Positions 9,280 to 16,132 of a stretch of DNA of 64,000 nt are shown piece by piece. The stretch covers positions 1-64,000 of the forward strand of contig CAADGK010000024.1 of assembly GCA_900696515.1 (NCBI GenBank), in the 5' to 3' direction. The notes under the pieces are model-generated. The model did not search any database. It saw nothing but the letters and a program-made list of their open reading frames with translations, and was not told the DNA's origin. Each line of letters opens with the position of its first letter. The stretch's first letter is position 1. Source of the DNA: an uncultured Nitrosospira sp. (lineage in GTDB: Bacteria; Nitrospirota; Nitrospiria; Nitrospirales; Nitrospiraceae). The translations under genes were made by a program, and so were the position numbers.

Positions 9280-9528
9280 ATGTGCCTGGCAGTTCCCGGA
9301 CAAGTCCTGAACATCCAAGATGACACCCTTCGCACAGCGACGGTGTCGTTCGGCGGTGCCACGAAGTCCGTCTCATTGGCGCTCGTGCCGGAAGCCGAAG
9401 TCGGCGACTATGTGATCGTCCACGTTGGCTTTGCCATCAGCAAGCTGGATGAGGAAGCAGCACGACGAACGTTGAAGATCTACGCCGACCTTGCAGTTTC
9501 TGGCTCGTCGGGTGCGACCGAGGGGTGA
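9280..9528 (+). CDS. hypC: Hydrogenase assembly chaperone HypC
   Basis: Small chaperone that partners HypD and carries the Fe(CN)2CO unit to the large subunit. It starts with the diagnostic MCLAVPGQVL, where Cys2 is the functional cysteine, and has VGDYVIVHVGFAISKLDEEAA as in OB-fold HypC/HupF proteins. At 82 residues it is typical. GGGAGATAGGAGAG precedes the ATG. It is cut off from hypD by 5.5 kb of accessory genes, whereas hypC and hypD are usually adjacent. Confidence 0.95.
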   Translation: MCLAVPGQVLNIQDDTLRTATVSFGGATKSVSLALVPEAEVGDYVIVHVGFAISKLDEEAARRTLKIYADLAVSGSSGATEG

Positions 9529-9582
9529 ATGCTAGACATGGCGTGTTTGCGGCTTGGCCTACAGAGTGAGAGGTGGGCTGAA

Positions 9583-9836
9583 TCAGTAGTGGAATCGGAG
9601 CTGCGCGATTTCTAGCGCATCATTCACAACGCGATACACCATCCGATGTTCATCGGTAATCCGCCGCGACCACAAGCCCGAGAGCGCATGCTTCAATGGC
9701 TCCGGTTTGCCGACGCCGCCGAAGGGTTCGCGTTGGGTATTGTGGATGAGTTTATCGATCCGTTCGACCATGCGTTTGTCGTGTTTCTGCCAACACAGGT
9801 AGTCTTCCCATGCCTCGGCTGCGAACCCAACGTCAC
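9583..9836 (-). pseudogene. yoeB: YoeB-family toxin with an apparent frameshift near its start
   Basis: The C-terminal part is a good YoeB/Txe mRNA interferase: GFAAEAWEDYLCWQKHDKR, then MVERIDKLIHN, HALSGLWSRRI and DEHRMVYRVV, ending in RFHY. The expected start is the GTG at 9836, which overlaps the antitoxin stop (GTGA) and gives VTLG. That frame differs by one base from the frame encoding FAAEAWEDY, so a single-base deletion near 9822-9827 (an ACCC run) breaks the gene. The longest intact frame starts at ATG 9771 and lacks about 20 N-terminal residues. A sequencing error in the short run is the alternative. Confidence 0.65.
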
Positions 9837-10123
9837 CTGACCGGCTTCCGTTCCACTTGGGCTGTAGTCAGTTGCTCAACGGCCGAGAGTAGTCGCTTGG
9901 CGTTGGCGGGTGCTCGTAAAAGATAGGCGGTTTCTTCCAGCGCCTTGTAGTCTTCGAGTGACAGCATCACAACAGACCGTTCGCCGTTGCGGGTAATAAT
10001 CAAGGTCTCGTGGTCGTCGCACACTCGATCCATGGTCCGCGCGGGATTGGCGCGAACGGCAGTATAGGTCAGCTGTACCGCTGAATGGGTGAAATGTCCA
10101 GTGTCGCCACAATGCCCAACCAC
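9833..10123 (-). CDS. yefM: YefM/Phd-family antitoxin
   Basis: Binds and neutralises YoeB and represses its own operon. The region LTYTAVRANPARTMDRV, DDHETLIITRNGERSVV and MLSLEDYKALEETAYLLRAP is highly characteristic of YefM. The start is uncertain: an in-frame GTG at 10123 gives 96 residues, the usual length is about 83, and an internal ATG at 10033 would remove the DNA-binding N-terminus. The stop TGA overlaps the expected toxin start, the normal gene order. The antitoxin frame is intact although the toxin seems broken. Confidence 0.8.
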   Translation of the reverse strand: MVGHCGDTGHFTHSAVQLTYTAVRANPARTMDRVCDDHETLIITRNGERSVVMLSLEDYKALEETAYLLRAPANAKRLLSAVEQLTTAQVERKPVR

Positions 10124-10167
10124 GGCACGCTGACTCTTATGCAGACCTAAAATGGTACACTGCCCAG

Positions 10168-10690
<523 letters not shown>

Positions 10691-10801
10691 TAAAGTAGTG
10701 GTCAGGGGAACCATTTCATTCCCGACCGCTATCGATCTTCCAGAACGAAATTGGCAGCTATGTCGGCAGGCGACTGATCCTTGTTGAGATCTCGAAGAGT
10801 T

Positions 10802-11095
10802 ATGAAACGATCACGCGTACATATCACACGAGGCAACGGCAATGTGTTTCTCGACTCGGGTTTTCCACCACAGGAGGCAGCCGAGATGCTGCTACGCTGC
10901 GAGCTTGCAGAGGCACTGCGCAAGTGGATGGCTCGTGAAAGATTGACTCAGGCACAGGCGGCCAAGCGTCTTGGTGTGGTTCAACCACGGATCTCTGAGA
11001 TTGCGTGCAACAAGGTCGACAAGCTGTCCCTCGACTATCTGGTAGGTCTTTGTGCCAAGGCCGGCCTGACGGTAGCCGTCAAGTTGACTGCATAG
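10802..11095 (+). CDS. XRE-family HTH protein, HigA-like orphan antitoxin
   Basis: 97 residues. The N-terminal stretch ITRGNGNVFLDSGFPPQEA is the signature of a group of HigA-like antitoxins. The helix-turn-helix follows at LTQAQAAKRLGVVQPRISEI (about residues 50-70). The tail GLCAKAGLTVAVKLTA is typical. The usual RelE/HigB-type toxin gene should lie directly upstream, but 10691-10801 holds no such frame. It is therefore a solitary antitoxin or regulator. The ATG at 10802 begins the conserved part; an upstream TTG at 10781 in the same frame is less likely. Confidence 0.8.
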   Translation: MKRSRVHITRGNGNVFLDSGFPPQEAAEMLLRCELAEALRKWMARERLTQAQAAKRLGVVQPRISEIACNKVDKLSLDYLVGLCAKAGLTVAVKLTA

Positions 11096-11134
11096 TTGTA
11101 TACTGCATTTTCAGGGCTGACGGCATCTCATTGA

Positions 11135-11155
11135 AACGCCAACAATGATGGCGTT
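11135..11155. promoter_or_regulatory. Inverted repeat upstream of the methyltransferase operon
   Basis: Perfect 7-bp inverted repeat AACGCCA-N7-TGGCGTT, 40 nt after the HTH gene and 76 nt before the nuclease start. It could be an operator for the upstream HTH protein or a hairpin ending that gene. No U-tract follows. Confidence 0.35.
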
Positions 11156-11230
11156 ATGCTCGGATCATTCGATGGCATATTAGACGGATGAAACACGGCA
11201 GATCCGGCTCTTACGAGGAACGGCCTAAAC

Positions 11231-12139
11231 ATGGTTCGGAATAGAAAAGACAGGAACAATATGGCAGCACGCAAAGATAAATCGTTTGCTGATTACCGTG
11301 TTGATGGGCATCTGTGGATCACGCTTTCGACCGGAGAGTACTACCCCGACGTACTGCCGCTTGCCTGTGAACTATACAAGCCTGTACTTGTAACGTTCGG
11401 GAAATTGTTGAAGTCCGCGCACTCCTCAGTAGACTTGTTCATGTCGATTGCTCAGACACAGCCACAATGGATGAGAATACAGTTATGCAGAGTGTTTCGG
11501 AAATACGTAAGCCCTGAAACCCCTGTCGAAATGCTCAAGAAGAAAAGTAGTGCAAAGAACATTTGCGATCGCTTCGGTAAAGGTTTTCGAAAGGTTACTG
11601 AAGTGCAAGATCGATTTCAATTGCGACCAATGCCAGATGAGGCGCTGTGTGCAATCCTGTGGGAATACAAGGATAGGGGTCAGAAGGGTTATGATTTGAC
11701 CGAAAGGCTGTTCACGATTATTCGAGAGCATTTTCCGTCGCTTGAAATTACTGGGCCAGAGCGTGCGGGGAAGGATGTGTTGCTCGGTGAATTGTTCGAC
11801 AATTACCCGAAGCCGGACAGACCCGTTGACTTCGTGCTGTCGCACAAAGGCAAGCCAGTTGCAATTGGCCTTGCGCGATATGACTCAGATAGAGGCGGAG
11901 CACAGGAGGATGACAGAACTGGTCAGTATCGAGATTGCGCAACGGAGGTTCTTAACTATGCAAAGCAACGCGCGCTTCCGCTCAAGGTTATTTTCCTGAA
12001 TGACGGGCCTGGACTCCTGCTTGGGTCTATGTGGAGTGATTACGCATATATTGAAGAGTCTCGACCAGGACTGATCAAAGTTGTGACACTCAGGATGATC
12101 CCTGAACGGATCACACTGAAATGGCTCCTTGCTAAATAG
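11231..12139 (+). CDS. Predicted restriction-type endonuclease (302 aa), unassigned family
   Basis: I do not recognise a named family. Context and composition suggest the nuclease of a restriction-modification-like operon: the stop lies 9 nt before a methyltransferase start. The C-terminal third has a PD-(D/E)xK-like succession, LEITGPERAGKDVLLGELF and then RPVDFVLSHKGKPVAIGLARYD followed by DRGGAQEDDRTGQY, in about residues 175-240. The usual ExK is not clear; the charged run after GLARYD may replace it. The N-terminal half has no motifs I can name. ATG 11231 has GAGGAAC upstream; ATG 11261 (MAARKDK) is an alternative. Base composition is visibly more AT-rich than the hydrogenase genes. Confidence 0.55.
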   Translation: MVRNRKDRNNMAARKDKSFADYRVDGHLWITLSTGEYYPDVLPLACELYKPVLVTFGKLLKSAHSSVDLFMSIAQTQPQWMRIQLCRVFRKYVSPETPVEMLKKKSSAKNICDRFGKGFRKVTEVQDRFQLRPMPDEALCAILWEYKDRGQKGYDLTERLFTIIREHFPSLEITGPERAGKDVLLGELFDNYPKPDRPVDFVLSHKGKPVAIGLARYDSDRGGAQEDDRTGQYRDCATEVLNYAKQRALPLKVIFLNDGPGLLLGSMWSDYAYIEESRPGLIKVVTLRMIPERITLKWLLAK

Positions 12140-12148
12140 GTAAACATC

Positions 12149-14176
12149 ATGGCTACAGGAATCCCAAGAAAGAAGGGAAACGGATCTGGTCACGCGTTGG
12201 AATTGACTTATTCCGGGAAGAAGAGTGTGGCCGATATACTAACTTCGCAGCCTTCGGCCTTTTTTGATTTAGCACGTAAATCAACTTCCTTGAATCGCAT
12301 GTACTGCGGTGACAATCTGGCTGGCCTCCGCCATTTGTTAGGAGAACCCTCCGTTCGTGGAAAGGTTACTCTAATTTATATCGACCCCCCCTTTGCCACC
12401 AGGGGCACATTTCTATCACGCAAACAACGGAAGGCTTATGAGGATGATCTTTATGGAGCTGAGTATGTGGAGAGTCTGAGGGAGCGATTGGTTTTTCTTA
12501 GGGAGTTATTATCCCCTACAGGCTCTATTTATCTCCATCTTGACGAGAACATGATATTTCAAATGAAGCTTGTCATGGATGAGATCTTCGGTGCCGCCAA
12601 CTACCGGAATATTATTGTTCGGAAGAAGTGCAATCCAAAGAACTACACCAGAAAGGCGTATGGAAATACAGCCGACTTCATCCTCTTCTACACTAAAGGT
12701 GAACAGTATGTGTGGAACCGTCCCGTTGAACCCCTGTCAGATAAAAGTTCTAAAGAATATCACTACATTGAGACTGAAACAGGACGTCGATTCATGAAGG
12801 TGCCGGTACATGCGCCAGGCAAGCGTAACGGTGCTACGGGAGGTCCTTGGCGTGGGAAAATGCCGCCACCCGGAAAACATTGGCAATACACACCCGACAC
12901 TCTTGATGAGATGGATGCTAGGGGTGAGATTTTCTGGTCAAGCAACGGCAACCCACGACGAAAAGTTTACCTCGATCAGCATCTTGGCGTTGGCATACAG
13001 GATATTTGGCTCGACTACAGAGATGCACATAACCAGAACATCAAGATCACAGGCTACCCCACAGAGAAGAATCCTGACTTGCTTCATCGTATTATTGAGG
13101 CATCTTCCAATCCGGGCGATATAGTTCTGGATTGCTACTCAGGTTCCGGGACGACGCTCGATGTCGCAAGCAATTTGCAGCGTCAATGGATTGGAATGGA
13201 CTCTAGTGGTGAATCCGTTGCTACAATTCTAGAACGCTTTAAGCATGGCTTGTCTCCTATGGGTGATTATGTCGAGAAGCGGAATGCCGGAGGAACAAAC
13301 ACATTAGATCAATCTACGTTGTTTGACTCCTTGGAAGAGGAGCTGCAGATAAACAAGATCAAGGCTCAACCCGCCCGTAAACCTATCACCGATTTCTCGT
13401 TATATGTTCAAAGCGGCGAGCAGAGTAGGTTCGTCCCCATCATCGACAAGTGGATACAGGAATTTGTTCTCCCCACTGAGGAAGGGCCACGGAATGCGTT
13501 GGTCGTTTCTGGCGGCGTTAACTTCGCCGAGGTGTGCTACAGGCTCCACAGCAAGGACAAGAAGCTGGCTGCTATCATTGACGGAATTGGTCCGTGCAAC
13601 TTGAGTATTCATCCAGCGGGTTTTGATTTCCTGGTTGACGCCATTGTGAGTCAACAGCTTTCTAAGGCAGCGGCGGACACGATTATTCATCGACTCCGAG
13701 GCCTCTTTCGGGATTCCAGCCCAACGCCCAAGGCCTTCGTCTCCATACCTCGATCAAAGATAATTGATGTGGGTGTATCAGCGAGAAAGTATCAGTACAT
13801 ATTGGAACTTGCGCAGCACCTTCAAAAGAAAAGCATTGATTTAGTGCAACTCTCGGATGAGCCCGATGAAGTAGTTCGTGCTATTCTCAAAAGGGTTAAA
13901 GGTATCGGTGATTGGACAGTCGATATGTATCTGCTTTTCGGACTTGGTAGACTCGATGTATTTCCAGTGAGCGACCTCGCACTTAGAAAAGCAATGTCAA
14001 GAGTCTACAATCTAGACGCAGCAGATGTTGAGGCTATGGAAAAGATCGCAAACCGATGGAAGCCCTATAGAAGTGTTGGATCATGGTATCTGTACCGAAA
14101 CACAAATGCCCAACAAAACGCTGTACCGGTGGCAATGGAGCGCAGCGGAATTGCGACCGATGAGCTTGGCAGTTAG
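12149..14176 (+). CDS. DNA N6/N4 methyltransferase fused to an AlkA-like DNA glycosylase
   Basis: 675 residues with two enzymatic halves. Residues about 45-375 are a beta-class amino-methyltransferase: catalytic DPPF at 79-82 comes first, GSIYLHLDE near 125, and the AdoMet-binding motif DCYSGSGTT at 328-336 comes last, as in type II/III modification enzymes. Residues about 440-655 are an HhH-GPD base-excision glycosylase of the 3-methyladenine (AlkA/Mag) type: VDAIVSQQLSKAAADTIIHRL near 496, the helix-hairpin-helix VKGIGDWTVDMYLL at 583-596, and DVFPVSDLALRKA at 603-615 with the expected catalytic Asp at 609. A linker of about 60 residues joins them. Both active sites look intact. Frame and alignment are continuous, so this is a true fusion rather than two genes. 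It lies between a nuclease-like gene and an HNH-type gene. Confidence 0.88.
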   Translation: MATGIPRKKGNGSGHALELTYSGKKSVADILTSQPSAFFDLARKSTSLNRMYCGDNLAGLRHLLGEPSVRGKVTLIYIDPPFATRGTFLSRKQRKAYEDDLYGAEYVESLRERLVFLRELLSPTGSIYLHLDENMIFQMKLVMDEIFGAANYRNIIVRKKCNPKNYTRKAYGNTADFILFYTKGEQYVWNRPVEPLSDKSSKEYHYIETETGRRFMKVPVHAPGKRNGATGGPWRGKMPPPGKHWQYTPDTLDEMDARGEIFWSSNGNPRRKVYLDQHLGVGIQDIWLDYRDAHNQNIKITGYPTEKNPDLLHRIIEASSNPGDIVLDCYSGSGTTLDVASNLQRQWIGMDSSGESVATILERFKHGLSPMGDYVEKRNAGGTNTLDQSTLFDSLEEELQINKIKAQPARKPITDFSLYVQSGEQSRFVPIIDKWIQEFVLPTEEGPRNALVVSGGVNFAEVCYRLHSKDKKLAAIIDGIGPCNLSIHPAGFDFLVDAIVSQQLSKAAADTIIHRLRGLFRDSSPTPKAFVSIPRSKIIDVGVSARKYQYILELAQHLQKKSIDLVQLSDEPDEVVRAILKRVKGIGDWTVDMYLLFGLGRLDVFPVSDLALRKAMSRVYNLDAADVEAMEKIANRWKPYRSVGSWYLYRNTNAQQNAVPVAMERSGIATDELGS

Positions 14177-14200
14177 GCAGCTTGAATTAAGTAATCCCCA

Positions 14201-14851
14201 ATGCGTGACAACTTTTTTGCTGGAAAGAAGGACCTACTGGCAAGACGAGTCAGTTTCACCTGCTCTAATCCGGAGTGCCGACCGGAACCCATCGGCCCTC
14301 AAGCTGACCCAACTGATGTTGTCAACATTGGGGTTGCAGCCCACAGATCGGCAGCCTCTCCCGGCGGGTCGCGGTACGAACCAGATCTATCATCCGAGCA
14401 GCGCGCGGATTCTTCAAATGGTATCTGGCTATGCCGGAGATGCACCAAGCTGATCGACAGCGACCCCATCCGGTTCAGCCGGGGCGTCTTGGAAGGTTGG
14501 AGGCGTGCGGCAGAGCAGTCAGCGGCCGTCGCTCTGATTCAAAGTAGGGACGCTGGCAAGGATTTTCAACCTGGTCATGCGAAGAATGAACGACTCATCT
14601 CAGCACTCCTTGAGGAGATGTGGGAAGATCTTCGGAACAATCCGACAACTCGCAAGTTCGTTGTTCTGAAACGCACCTGGGCCTATAACAGCCACGGGCC
14701 TTACCTGGCTTACTACTTGGATGAACATGAAGACTTAGAGGGTAAGCTCCAAGTGCTCGCAAATCTCGGGCATGTTCATGACATAACCTACAAGAACGTC
14801 CGCCGATTCCTCTTCCAAGAAAACTTTGTGGACTACTTGACTGGGACATGA
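14201..14851 (+). CDS. HNH-type zinc-binding protein of the methyltransferase operon
   Basis: 216 residues. The N-terminal domain has the spaced cysteine/histidine pattern of a defence-associated HNH family: CSNPECR, VNIGVAAHRSAASPGGSRY, then SNGIWLCRRCTKLIDSD and RGVLEGWRRAAE. The C-terminal half (about 110-216: ERLISALLEEMWEDLRNN, GPYLAYYLDEHEDLEGKLQVLANLG) is helical and winged-helix-like without a name. It starts 24 nt after the methyltransferase stop on the same strand. The family is known as an accessory or nuclease domain in diverse phage-defence operons. Whether this copy cuts DNA cannot be told from sequence alone. Confidence 0.75.
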   Translation: MRDNFFAGKKDLLARRVSFTCSNPECRPEPIGPQADPTDVVNIGVAAHRSAASPGGSRYEPDLSSEQRADSSNGIWLCRRCTKLIDSDPIRFSRGVLEGWRRAAEQSAAVALIQSRDAGKDFQPGHAKNERLISALLEEMWEDLRNNPTTRKFVVLKRTWAYNSHGPYLAYYLDEHEDLEGKLQVLANLGHVHDITYKNVRRFLFQENFVDYLTGT

Positions 14852-15022: not shown

Positions 15023-16132
15023 ATGAAGTACGTCGATGAGTTTCGCGATCGCGCGGTGGCGACGGCGCTGGCGGAGCGGATCAAGCAGACGGTGCAGCGG
15101 CCCTGGACGATCATGGAGGTTTGTGGTGGGCAGACCCACTCTATTGTGCGGTTCGGGCTTGATAGTCTGTTGCCGAAAGACCTCACGCTGGTTCATGGGC
15201 CGGGTTGTCCGGTTTGTGTGACCTCGGTATCGCTGATCGACCAGGCTGTCTGCCTCGCCTCCTTGCCAAACGTGATCTTCTGCTCCTTTGGAGACATGTT
15301 GCGTGTGCCTGGTTCTCGTGGTGACCTCTTCGGCGTAAAAGCGGCGGGCGGAGATGTGCGGATTATCTATTCGCCGTTGGATGCACTGGAACTGGCTCGA
15401 AAGCATCTCGATCGCGAAGTCGTCTGTTTCGCGGTGGGATTTGAAACCACCGCTCCGGCCTGGGCCATGGCGGTTACGCAAGCGAAACAATTGGGAGTCA
15501 CGAACTTCAGTCTGCTGATTGCCCATGTGCTGGTACCTCCGGCAATGGAGGCCATCCTGTCGTCACCCCAGAATCGCATTCAGGGGTTTCTCGCCGCCGG
15601 CCATGTCTGTACCGTGATGGGCTATGAGGAGTACGAGGCCATCGCACAGAAGTATCGCGTGCCGATCGTCGTGACCGGGTTTGAGCCGCTCGATGTGCTG
15701 GAAGGCGTGAGCATGTTGGTGAGTCAGTTGGAAGAGGGACGAGTCGAAGTCGAGAATCAGTACGTGCGATCGGTGAGCCGAGAGGGAAACCGACCAGCGA
15801 GAACTCTTGTCGACGAGGTCTTTGAACCGGCGCCGCGAATCTGGCGCGGCATCGGCGAAATCCCCGCGAGTGGCCTGCGCCTCAAATCTGCCTACGGTGC
15901 CTATGACGCCGAGGTGAAGTTTCAACGTGAACTTGTGCAGTTGTCAGTAGGCATTGAAGATCCGGAATGCCAGAGTGGACTGGTCCTCCAAGGCTTACTC
16001 AAACCAATGGATTGCTCTGCCTTCGGGACTCGTTGCACGCCAGAGCAGCCGCTAGGTGCGCCGATGGTGTCGAGCGAAGGGGCTTGCGCGGCGTATTATC
16101 GGTATCGAGGCCACGTAAAATGTGAAAAGTGA
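15023..16132 (+). CDS. hypD: Hydrogenase formation protein HypD
   Basis: Scaffold on which the Fe(CN)2CO group is assembled with HypC. Conserved motifs: [20 protein letters not shown] near residue 33, [11 protein letters not shown] near 58, [12 protein letters not shown], and [10 protein letters not shown], with FeS-cluster cysteines toward the C-terminus ([22 protein letters not shown]). Full length at 369 residues. The last residues VKCEK and the stop are encoded within a heptamer repeat. About 170 nt upstream separate it from the accessory island; no ribosome site is obvious there. Confidence 0.95.

Follow-up and report, generated by a model that had tools for sequence, protein, structure and literature searches.

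The BstEII restriction–modification (R-M) system of Geobacillus stearothermophilus, in which an enzyme cleaving at GGTNACC is paired with a beta-class methyltransferase, is the described system most similar to the locus reported here. This locus occupies positions 11231–14851 of a stretch of 64,000 nucleotides (hereafter the window; positions 1–64,000 of contig CAADGK010000024.1, assembly GCA_900696515.1) from an uncultured Nitrosospira sp., and encodes a homologous restriction enzyme followed by a beta-class methyltransferase that continues into a DNA glycosylase domain. Judged from sequence, it is a BstEII-type Type II R-M system whose methyltransferase carries an appended glycosylase; this extra catalytic domain is foreign to the BstEII type, hence we class the locus as a variant of that type. 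The two Geobacillus genes converge, and the methyltransferase there has no glycosylase beyond its tail; at the present locus both genes lie in one operon, the restriction gene first.

Repair enzymes travelling with R-M methyltransferases have precedents in Vsr and Mig.MthI. Both are separate proteins that accompany 5-methylcytosine methyltransferases and correct the T:G mismatches left by deaminated 5-methylcytosine, whereas the present protein joins an amino-methyltransferase to a predicted alkyl-base glycosylase. That glycosylase shares its whole-domain fold (Z 23–24, root-mean-square deviation 1.8–3.3) with Deinococcus radiodurans AlkA2 (DrAlkA2) and Schizosaccharomyces pombe Mag1 and Mag2; like them it lacks the N-terminal AlkA domain and has the same hairpin and the same catalytic Asp, but those are stand-alone repair enzymes and this one is tethered to a site-specific methyltransferase. 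PabI-family restriction glycosylases also place a DNA glycosylase within an R-M system (PMC10273834). PabI, however, is itself the restriction enzyme, a HALFPIPE-fold protein that removes unmodified adenine, while here an HhH-GPD glycosylase sits on the modification enzyme and the restriction gene is BstEII-like. Brig1 and Brig3 are glycosylases in a defence role, but they belong to the uracil-DNA glycosylase superfamily, stand alone and act on hydroxymethylcytosine derivatives. The pairing of DNMTs with ALKB2 (PMC9246332) likewise matches a repair enzyme to a damage-making DNA methyltransferase, although it involves separate genes, cytosine-5 methylation and a dioxygenase rather than a glycosylase, and is found in eukaryotes. 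The first-pass annotation of the window knew of no characterised fusion of this kind; none was described in the literature searched, REBASE not being covered, and as far as that literature shows the domain architecture is an undescribed one within a known R-M family.

The restriction gene and the fusion protein

Three open reading frames on the + strand make up the operon (11231–12139, 12149–14176 and 14201–14851), with intergenic gaps of 9 and 24 nt. The first had been described as a nuclease-like gene 10 nt upstream of the fusion; it does lie upstream, at a distance of 9 nt, and its identity can be sharpened to a BstEII-family Type II restriction endonuclease. In a phmmer comparison with the BstEII structure (PDB 9ibq), residues 17–299 aligned to residues 3–285 of the chain with an E-value of 6.8e-85, and on this alignment the gene product is a BstEII homologue over its whole length. 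Because homologues begin there, we place the likely start at 11261 (MAARKDKSF), which has AGGA upstream. Over 28 full-length BstEII-family restriction enzymes, drawn from loci with and without the fusion, 46 positions are invariant. GGTNACC occurs 1098 times in the host genome against 1133 for a reversed control, which gives no sign of avoidance and is uninformative for the site recognised.

The second gene (12149–14176) encodes a single protein of 675 residues, in which the first-pass annotation had recognised a methyltransferase with DPPF and an S-adenosylmethionine (AdoMet) motif joined to an HhH-GPD glycosylase with a catalytic Asp609; Pfam matches and motif positions bear this out. The beta-class amino-methyltransferase domain spans residues 14–371 (12188–13261), with a match to N6_N4_Mtase (PF01555) at residues 73–359 (150 bits, E 1.2e-43), DPPF at residues 79–82 and the AdoMet motif DCYSGSG at 328–334. 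It matches PADLOC MTase_II at 4e-132 and, structurally, the Type III Mod subunits 6k0w and 4zcf (Z 27), and is 56% identical over 377 residues to the methyltransferase of Geobacillus pBSO1, which stands beside its own BstEII-like gene. Its predicted target is N6-adenine. The glycosylase domain occupies residues 457–658 (13517–14122). HhH-GPD (PF00730) matches residues 496–638 with 56 bits against a cutoff of 26 (E 7.7e-15), and the phmmer matches include Mag2 (1e-28) and DrAlkA2 (6e-26). Fold comparison by VIA agreed, giving Z 24.4 for Mag2 and Z 23.0 with 35% identity for DrAlkA2. The helix-hairpin-helix reads VKGIGDWTVDM (residues 583–593; 13895–13927) and the codon of Asp609 lies at 13973–13975. 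From these matches the domain is assigned to the AlkA/Mag-type HhH-GPD glycosylases, and excision of alkylated bases is predicted.

Structure prediction, one of the checks proposed earlier, gave an AlphaFold2 model with two confident domains, the second of AlkA2/Mag2-type fold, on either side of a disordered tether (mean predicted local distance difference test score, pLDDT, 78); the predicted template modelling score of 0.55 is too low to place the two domains relative to each other. The tether (residues 372–456; 13262–13516) corresponds to the C-terminal tail of the methyltransferase, with pLDDT under 50 at residues 371–407 and a beta-alpha element at 415–440. Unfused relatives terminate in a short tail that holds such an element, for example IVRDFTLFSQPSYLPVFQTLL, and the fusions have its match (ITDFSLYV...IIDKW, residues 413–435) N-terminal to the glycosylase; therefore the glycosylase was added to a complete methyltransferase.

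Within this otherwise variable linker, the sole invariant residues around position 390 are L391, F392 and L395, which belong to a QxTLFxxL pattern. In the protein from the window the core of the pattern is QSTLF (residues 388–392; 13310–13324), which lies in the disordered part and resembles the bacterial sliding-clamp-binding consensus, QL(S/D)LF. Related motifs (QLSLEL, QLDLI, QSSLF) occur in the methyltransferase tails of half of the unfused relatives, the tails inspected including those of the L012–L045 methyltransferases. A clamp-like motif placed after the catalytic domain may recruit BstEII-family Type II methyltransferases to the replication fork.

Distribution and descent of the fusion

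Scanning genomes and searching for relatives gave 11 genomes, of at least six phyla, that encode the full-length fusion. They are the genome of the window, a second member of its genus (G057), two Nitrospira (L007 and L009) that seem, from their isolate names, to be sponge-associated, and representatives of Binatota (L005), Desulfobacterales (L006), Planctomycetota (L008), Gammaproteobacteria (L010), Entotheonella (L011) and the Poribacteria group (G490), together with G650. The earlier suggestion that the domain pair be sought elsewhere was therefore fruitful, with ten further genomes found, and the identical full-length architecture in all ten rules out an assembly artefact joining two genes. 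A BstEII-like gene lies directly upstream of the fusion in every one of the 11 genomes, though with a frameshift in two assemblies (L006 and L007) and cut short by the contig end in L005; besides this gene, none recurs around the fusion over the ten loci compared. Co-occurrence of both flanking genes had been proposed as a check on the operon; it holds for the BstEII-like gene at all ten other loci and fails for the HNH gene, found at none of them. No relatives of the fusion were found in viral contigs, phages yielding distant solo glycosylases only, and no full-length fusion was present on plasmids among 72,556 records.

The two frameshifts are an observation of their own. In L006 (5114–5997) and L007 (5115–5998), which are distant genomes, the BstEII-like gene is interrupted at nearly one position, beside an intact fused methyltransferase gene. 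Restriction loss, phase variation and assembly error are candidate readings.

About 22 further BstEII-family loci, Geobacillus stearothermophilus pBSO1 included, have a methyltransferase without a glycosylase, mostly beside a BstEII-like gene. The appended glycosylase is thus restricted, among BstEII-family methyltransferases, to the fused clade. The fused methyltransferases form one clade (Shimodaira–Hasegawa-like approximate likelihood ratio test 100) whose internal branching does not track phyla; a single joining event was thus followed by horizontal spread of a unit made of the restriction gene and the methyltransferase–glycosylase gene. In the glycosylase tree, the solo sequences L034–L036 are nested among the fused ones, and a tree holding the fused sequences together is not rejected (approximately unbiased test, p 0.19). 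One of these solo genes, from the Poribacteria genome L034 (5971–6774), encodes a methyltransferase tail followed by the glycosylase in a genome with no BstEII-type methyltransferase; its sequence marks it as a probable fusion remnant that lost the methyltransferase and kept the glycosylase.

All 11 fusions retain Asp609, GIG(D/N)WT and the intercalation segment QQ(L/I)S(K/R); the first two are shared by four close solo relatives as well. Ratios of nonsynonymous to synonymous substitution (dN/dS) for three pairs were 0.074, 0.083 and 0.159 in the glycosylase, 0.079, 0.064 and 0.036 in the methyltransferase, and 0.22–0.29 in the linker. The glycosylase is under purifying selection, with values similar to or somewhat above those of the methyltransferase domain. 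Fifteen methyltransferase positions, spanning residues 89–344, separate the fused clade, where they are almost invariant, from its unfused relatives (T157V, W196L, K216M, P282G and others), several of the switches being complete. These positions are the best lead on why this clade needs an extra domain, and a change in the pocket or in target recognition is possible.

Possible roles of the appended glycosylase

Two mechanisms had been proposed in the first-pass annotation, repair of aberrant N3-methyl products of the methyltransferase and excision of modified bases from invading DNA so that the nuclease or the HNH protein could cut at abasic sites; repair is the better supported. The reading we lean towards, quite plausible though short of probable, is that of a BstEII-type R-M system whose glycosylase removes alkylated bases such as 1-methyladenine produced by its own methyltransferase. 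The methyltransferase would make N6-methyladenine in GGTNACC and so protect the host, while the BstEII-like enzyme would cut unmodified DNA. A flipped adenine would be held so that N6 lies close to AdoMet, the neighbouring nucleophile along that edge being N1; a wrong ring atom brought near AdoMet would occasionally give 1-methyladenine or 3-methylcytosine, both of which block replication. The tethered AlkA2-type domain would excise these bases and leave an abasic site for ordinary base-excision repair, and the clamp-binding-like QxTLF motif in the tether may bring the two activities to the replication fork, the place where hemimethylated sites are newly formed. The proposed role in repair is thus retained with a different lesion, since N1-methyladenine is the likelier by-product of an N6-adenine enzyme than N3-methyl products. 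More tentatively, we suggest the fuller form of this scheme, a self-proofreading N6-adenine methyltransferase recruited to the replication fork by the sliding clamp together with its glycosylase, whose toxic N1- and N3-methyl by-products at or near its site are removed by the tethered glycosylase. DrAlkA2, which lacks the N-terminal AlkA domain, excises 3-methyladenine, 7-methylguanine, 1-methyladenine and 3-methylcytosine (PMC5128194), and eukaryotic DNMTs co-evolve with ALKB2 and yield 3-methylcytosine off target (PMC9246332). The least certain parts, which we infer, are the substrate of the glycosylase and the origin of the lesions in its own methyltransferase.

Several points weigh against this explanation. 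The 22 or so unfused BstEII-family methyltransferases, that of Geobacillus pBSO1 among them, manage without a glycosylase; two more AlkA-like genes are present in the host genome, and its repair capacity is not obviously short; and the literature searched yielded no side-product made by a prokaryotic N6-adenine methyltransferase. Substrate specificity is not readable from sequence. Qx(S/T)LF, a point in favour, is present in 10 of the 11 fusions against a shuffled mean of 0.03, a statistic that overstates the significance because the pattern was defined after the tails had been viewed.

The existence of close solo relatives, in Poribacteria and others, and the retention of the glycosylase by L034 with a methyltransferase tail and no methyltransferase are what would be expected of general repair cargo, that is, an ordinary alkylation-repair enzyme spread with a mobile R-M unit and aiding its host under alkylation stress. 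The methyltransferase would then serve only to bring the glycosylase to DNA or the fork, and the damage would have other sources; AlkA2-type enzymes are general repair enzymes. We consider this unlikely, though a serious competitor: 11 of the 15 close members are fused and linked to the restriction gene, general repair needs no fusion, and the host is already supplied with other AlkA-like genes. The domain might instead serve mainly as an extra DNA-binding and base-flipping arm of the methyltransferase, its catalysis being incidental. HhH domains bind DNA without sequence preference, and Mag2, among the closest solved relatives, was studied as an abasic-site binder to go by the title of entry 4b21; yet all 11 fusions, despite large divergence, preserve the catalytic Asp, the hairpin and QQ(L/I)S(K/R), and relatives methylate without such an arm, so that this role seems improbable.

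An attack on invading DNA, in which the glycosylase would excise the modified bases of phages that evade the BstEII-like nuclease and so create abasic sites and breaks, much as Brig1 and Brig3 act against T-even phages, is scarcely more probable than a binding arm. Glycosylases with a defensive function are known (PMC11078745, PMC13160076), toxin–antitoxin genes share the island of the operon, and other copies of the repeat that precedes it (described below) flank defence-like genes, for example SIR2 plus HerA. Against this, the Brig enzymes are of the uracil-DNA glycosylase superfamily and the present domain is of the HhH-GPD/AlkA2 kind, it is joined to the methyltransferase and not to the nuclease, and its active motifs match those of repair enzymes with no visible change. 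The version in which base excision lets the nuclease or HNH protein cut at abasic sites has nothing positive to support it: the nuclease is a site-specific Type II enzyme of the ordinary kind, and most of its close relatives do their work in the absence of a glycosylase. Least probable of all, in our view, is that the fused clade makes a base or recognises a site different from that of BstEII, with the glycosylase policing the product. The fifteen nearly fixed positions speak for such a change, but drift also yields clade-specific residues, and the restriction gene has stayed a close homologue of BstEII, the 46 invariant positions holding across both groups.

The fusion of the two domains in at least eleven distantly related bacteria suggests that DNA methylation by enzymes may come coupled to repair of its own damage. 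If the self-repair explanation is true, protection by an adenine methyltransferase carries a genotoxic cost large enough to select an attached repair enzyme, a matter already answered for eukaryotic cytosine-5 methyltransferases; it would also account for some of the fitness cost of R-M systems and provide a prokaryotic counterpart of the DNMT–ALKB2 pairing. The fusion lends itself to a clean test, as one protein with two separable active sites and natural unfused controls. Whatever its role, it is an undescribed architecture in a well-known enzyme family, present in at least six phyla.

Neighbouring genes and genomic setting

The third gene of the operon (14201–14851, + strand) encodes an HNH-type protein of 216 residues that had been counted as part of the system. 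Its position 24 nt downstream of the fusion and its HNH similarity are confirmed: PADLOC matches comprise PDC-M68A (E 2e-17) and the HNH region of CBASS/SAVED effectors, and Pfam gave no match. Membership of the system is not, since the ten other fusion loci (the eleventh locus, L070, included) all lack a homologue, and we rejected it as a third component and treat it as a neighbour outside the conserved system. Its best full-length relative is on a Sphingopyxis plasmid, with no R-M neighbour within 5 kb. At the Entotheonella locus (L011), a second and more distant AlkA-like gene (2–628) lies about 5 kb upstream of the R-M operon.

The three genes had been noted as lower in GC than their flanks, in keeping with transfer, and so they are (0.47–0.49 over 11–14 kb against about 0.55–0.59). 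The cassette lies within a hydrogenase-maturation cluster, annotated from translations, between hypC (9280–9528) and hypD (15023–16132). Among sister genomes the hypC–hypD interval varies, holding about 1–5.7 kb of other genes in most and measuring about 40 bp in one. The stretch from hypC to the operon (9580–11095) contains a minus-strand Phd/YefM antitoxin gene adjoining a small toxin-like open reading frame, a pair resembling BrnT/BrnA in which an in-frame stop interrupts the toxin gene, and an HTH_37 regulator; the island therefore holds several toxin–antitoxin remnants.

Immediately before the operon, blastn and alignment placed a copy of a repeat of about 105–115 bp (11123–11240, no strand assigned), which is probably the edge of the inserted unit. 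One or two copies occur in the hypC–hypD interval of at least six sister genomes, and the same repeat precedes single-ORF (open reading frame) cassettes elsewhere in the host genome. Its right end resembles an integron attC core, GCCTAAAC-N3-GTTAGGC in most copies. Near the repeat arrays, a search for an integron integrase gave just weak tyrosine-recombinase matches, of a kind that controls gave too. From their sequence, the repeat-bounded units look like integron cassettes, the repeat being an attC candidate only, and they may belong to an integron-type or other cassette system of the genus. The repeat contains two hairpins and precedes defence-like genes, including SIR2 plus HerA and an SMC-like ATPase; the regions concerned, besides that in the window, are on contigs C55 (14041–15428) and C17 (6058–8553) of genome G000, as loci L099 and L100, and at L086–L092.

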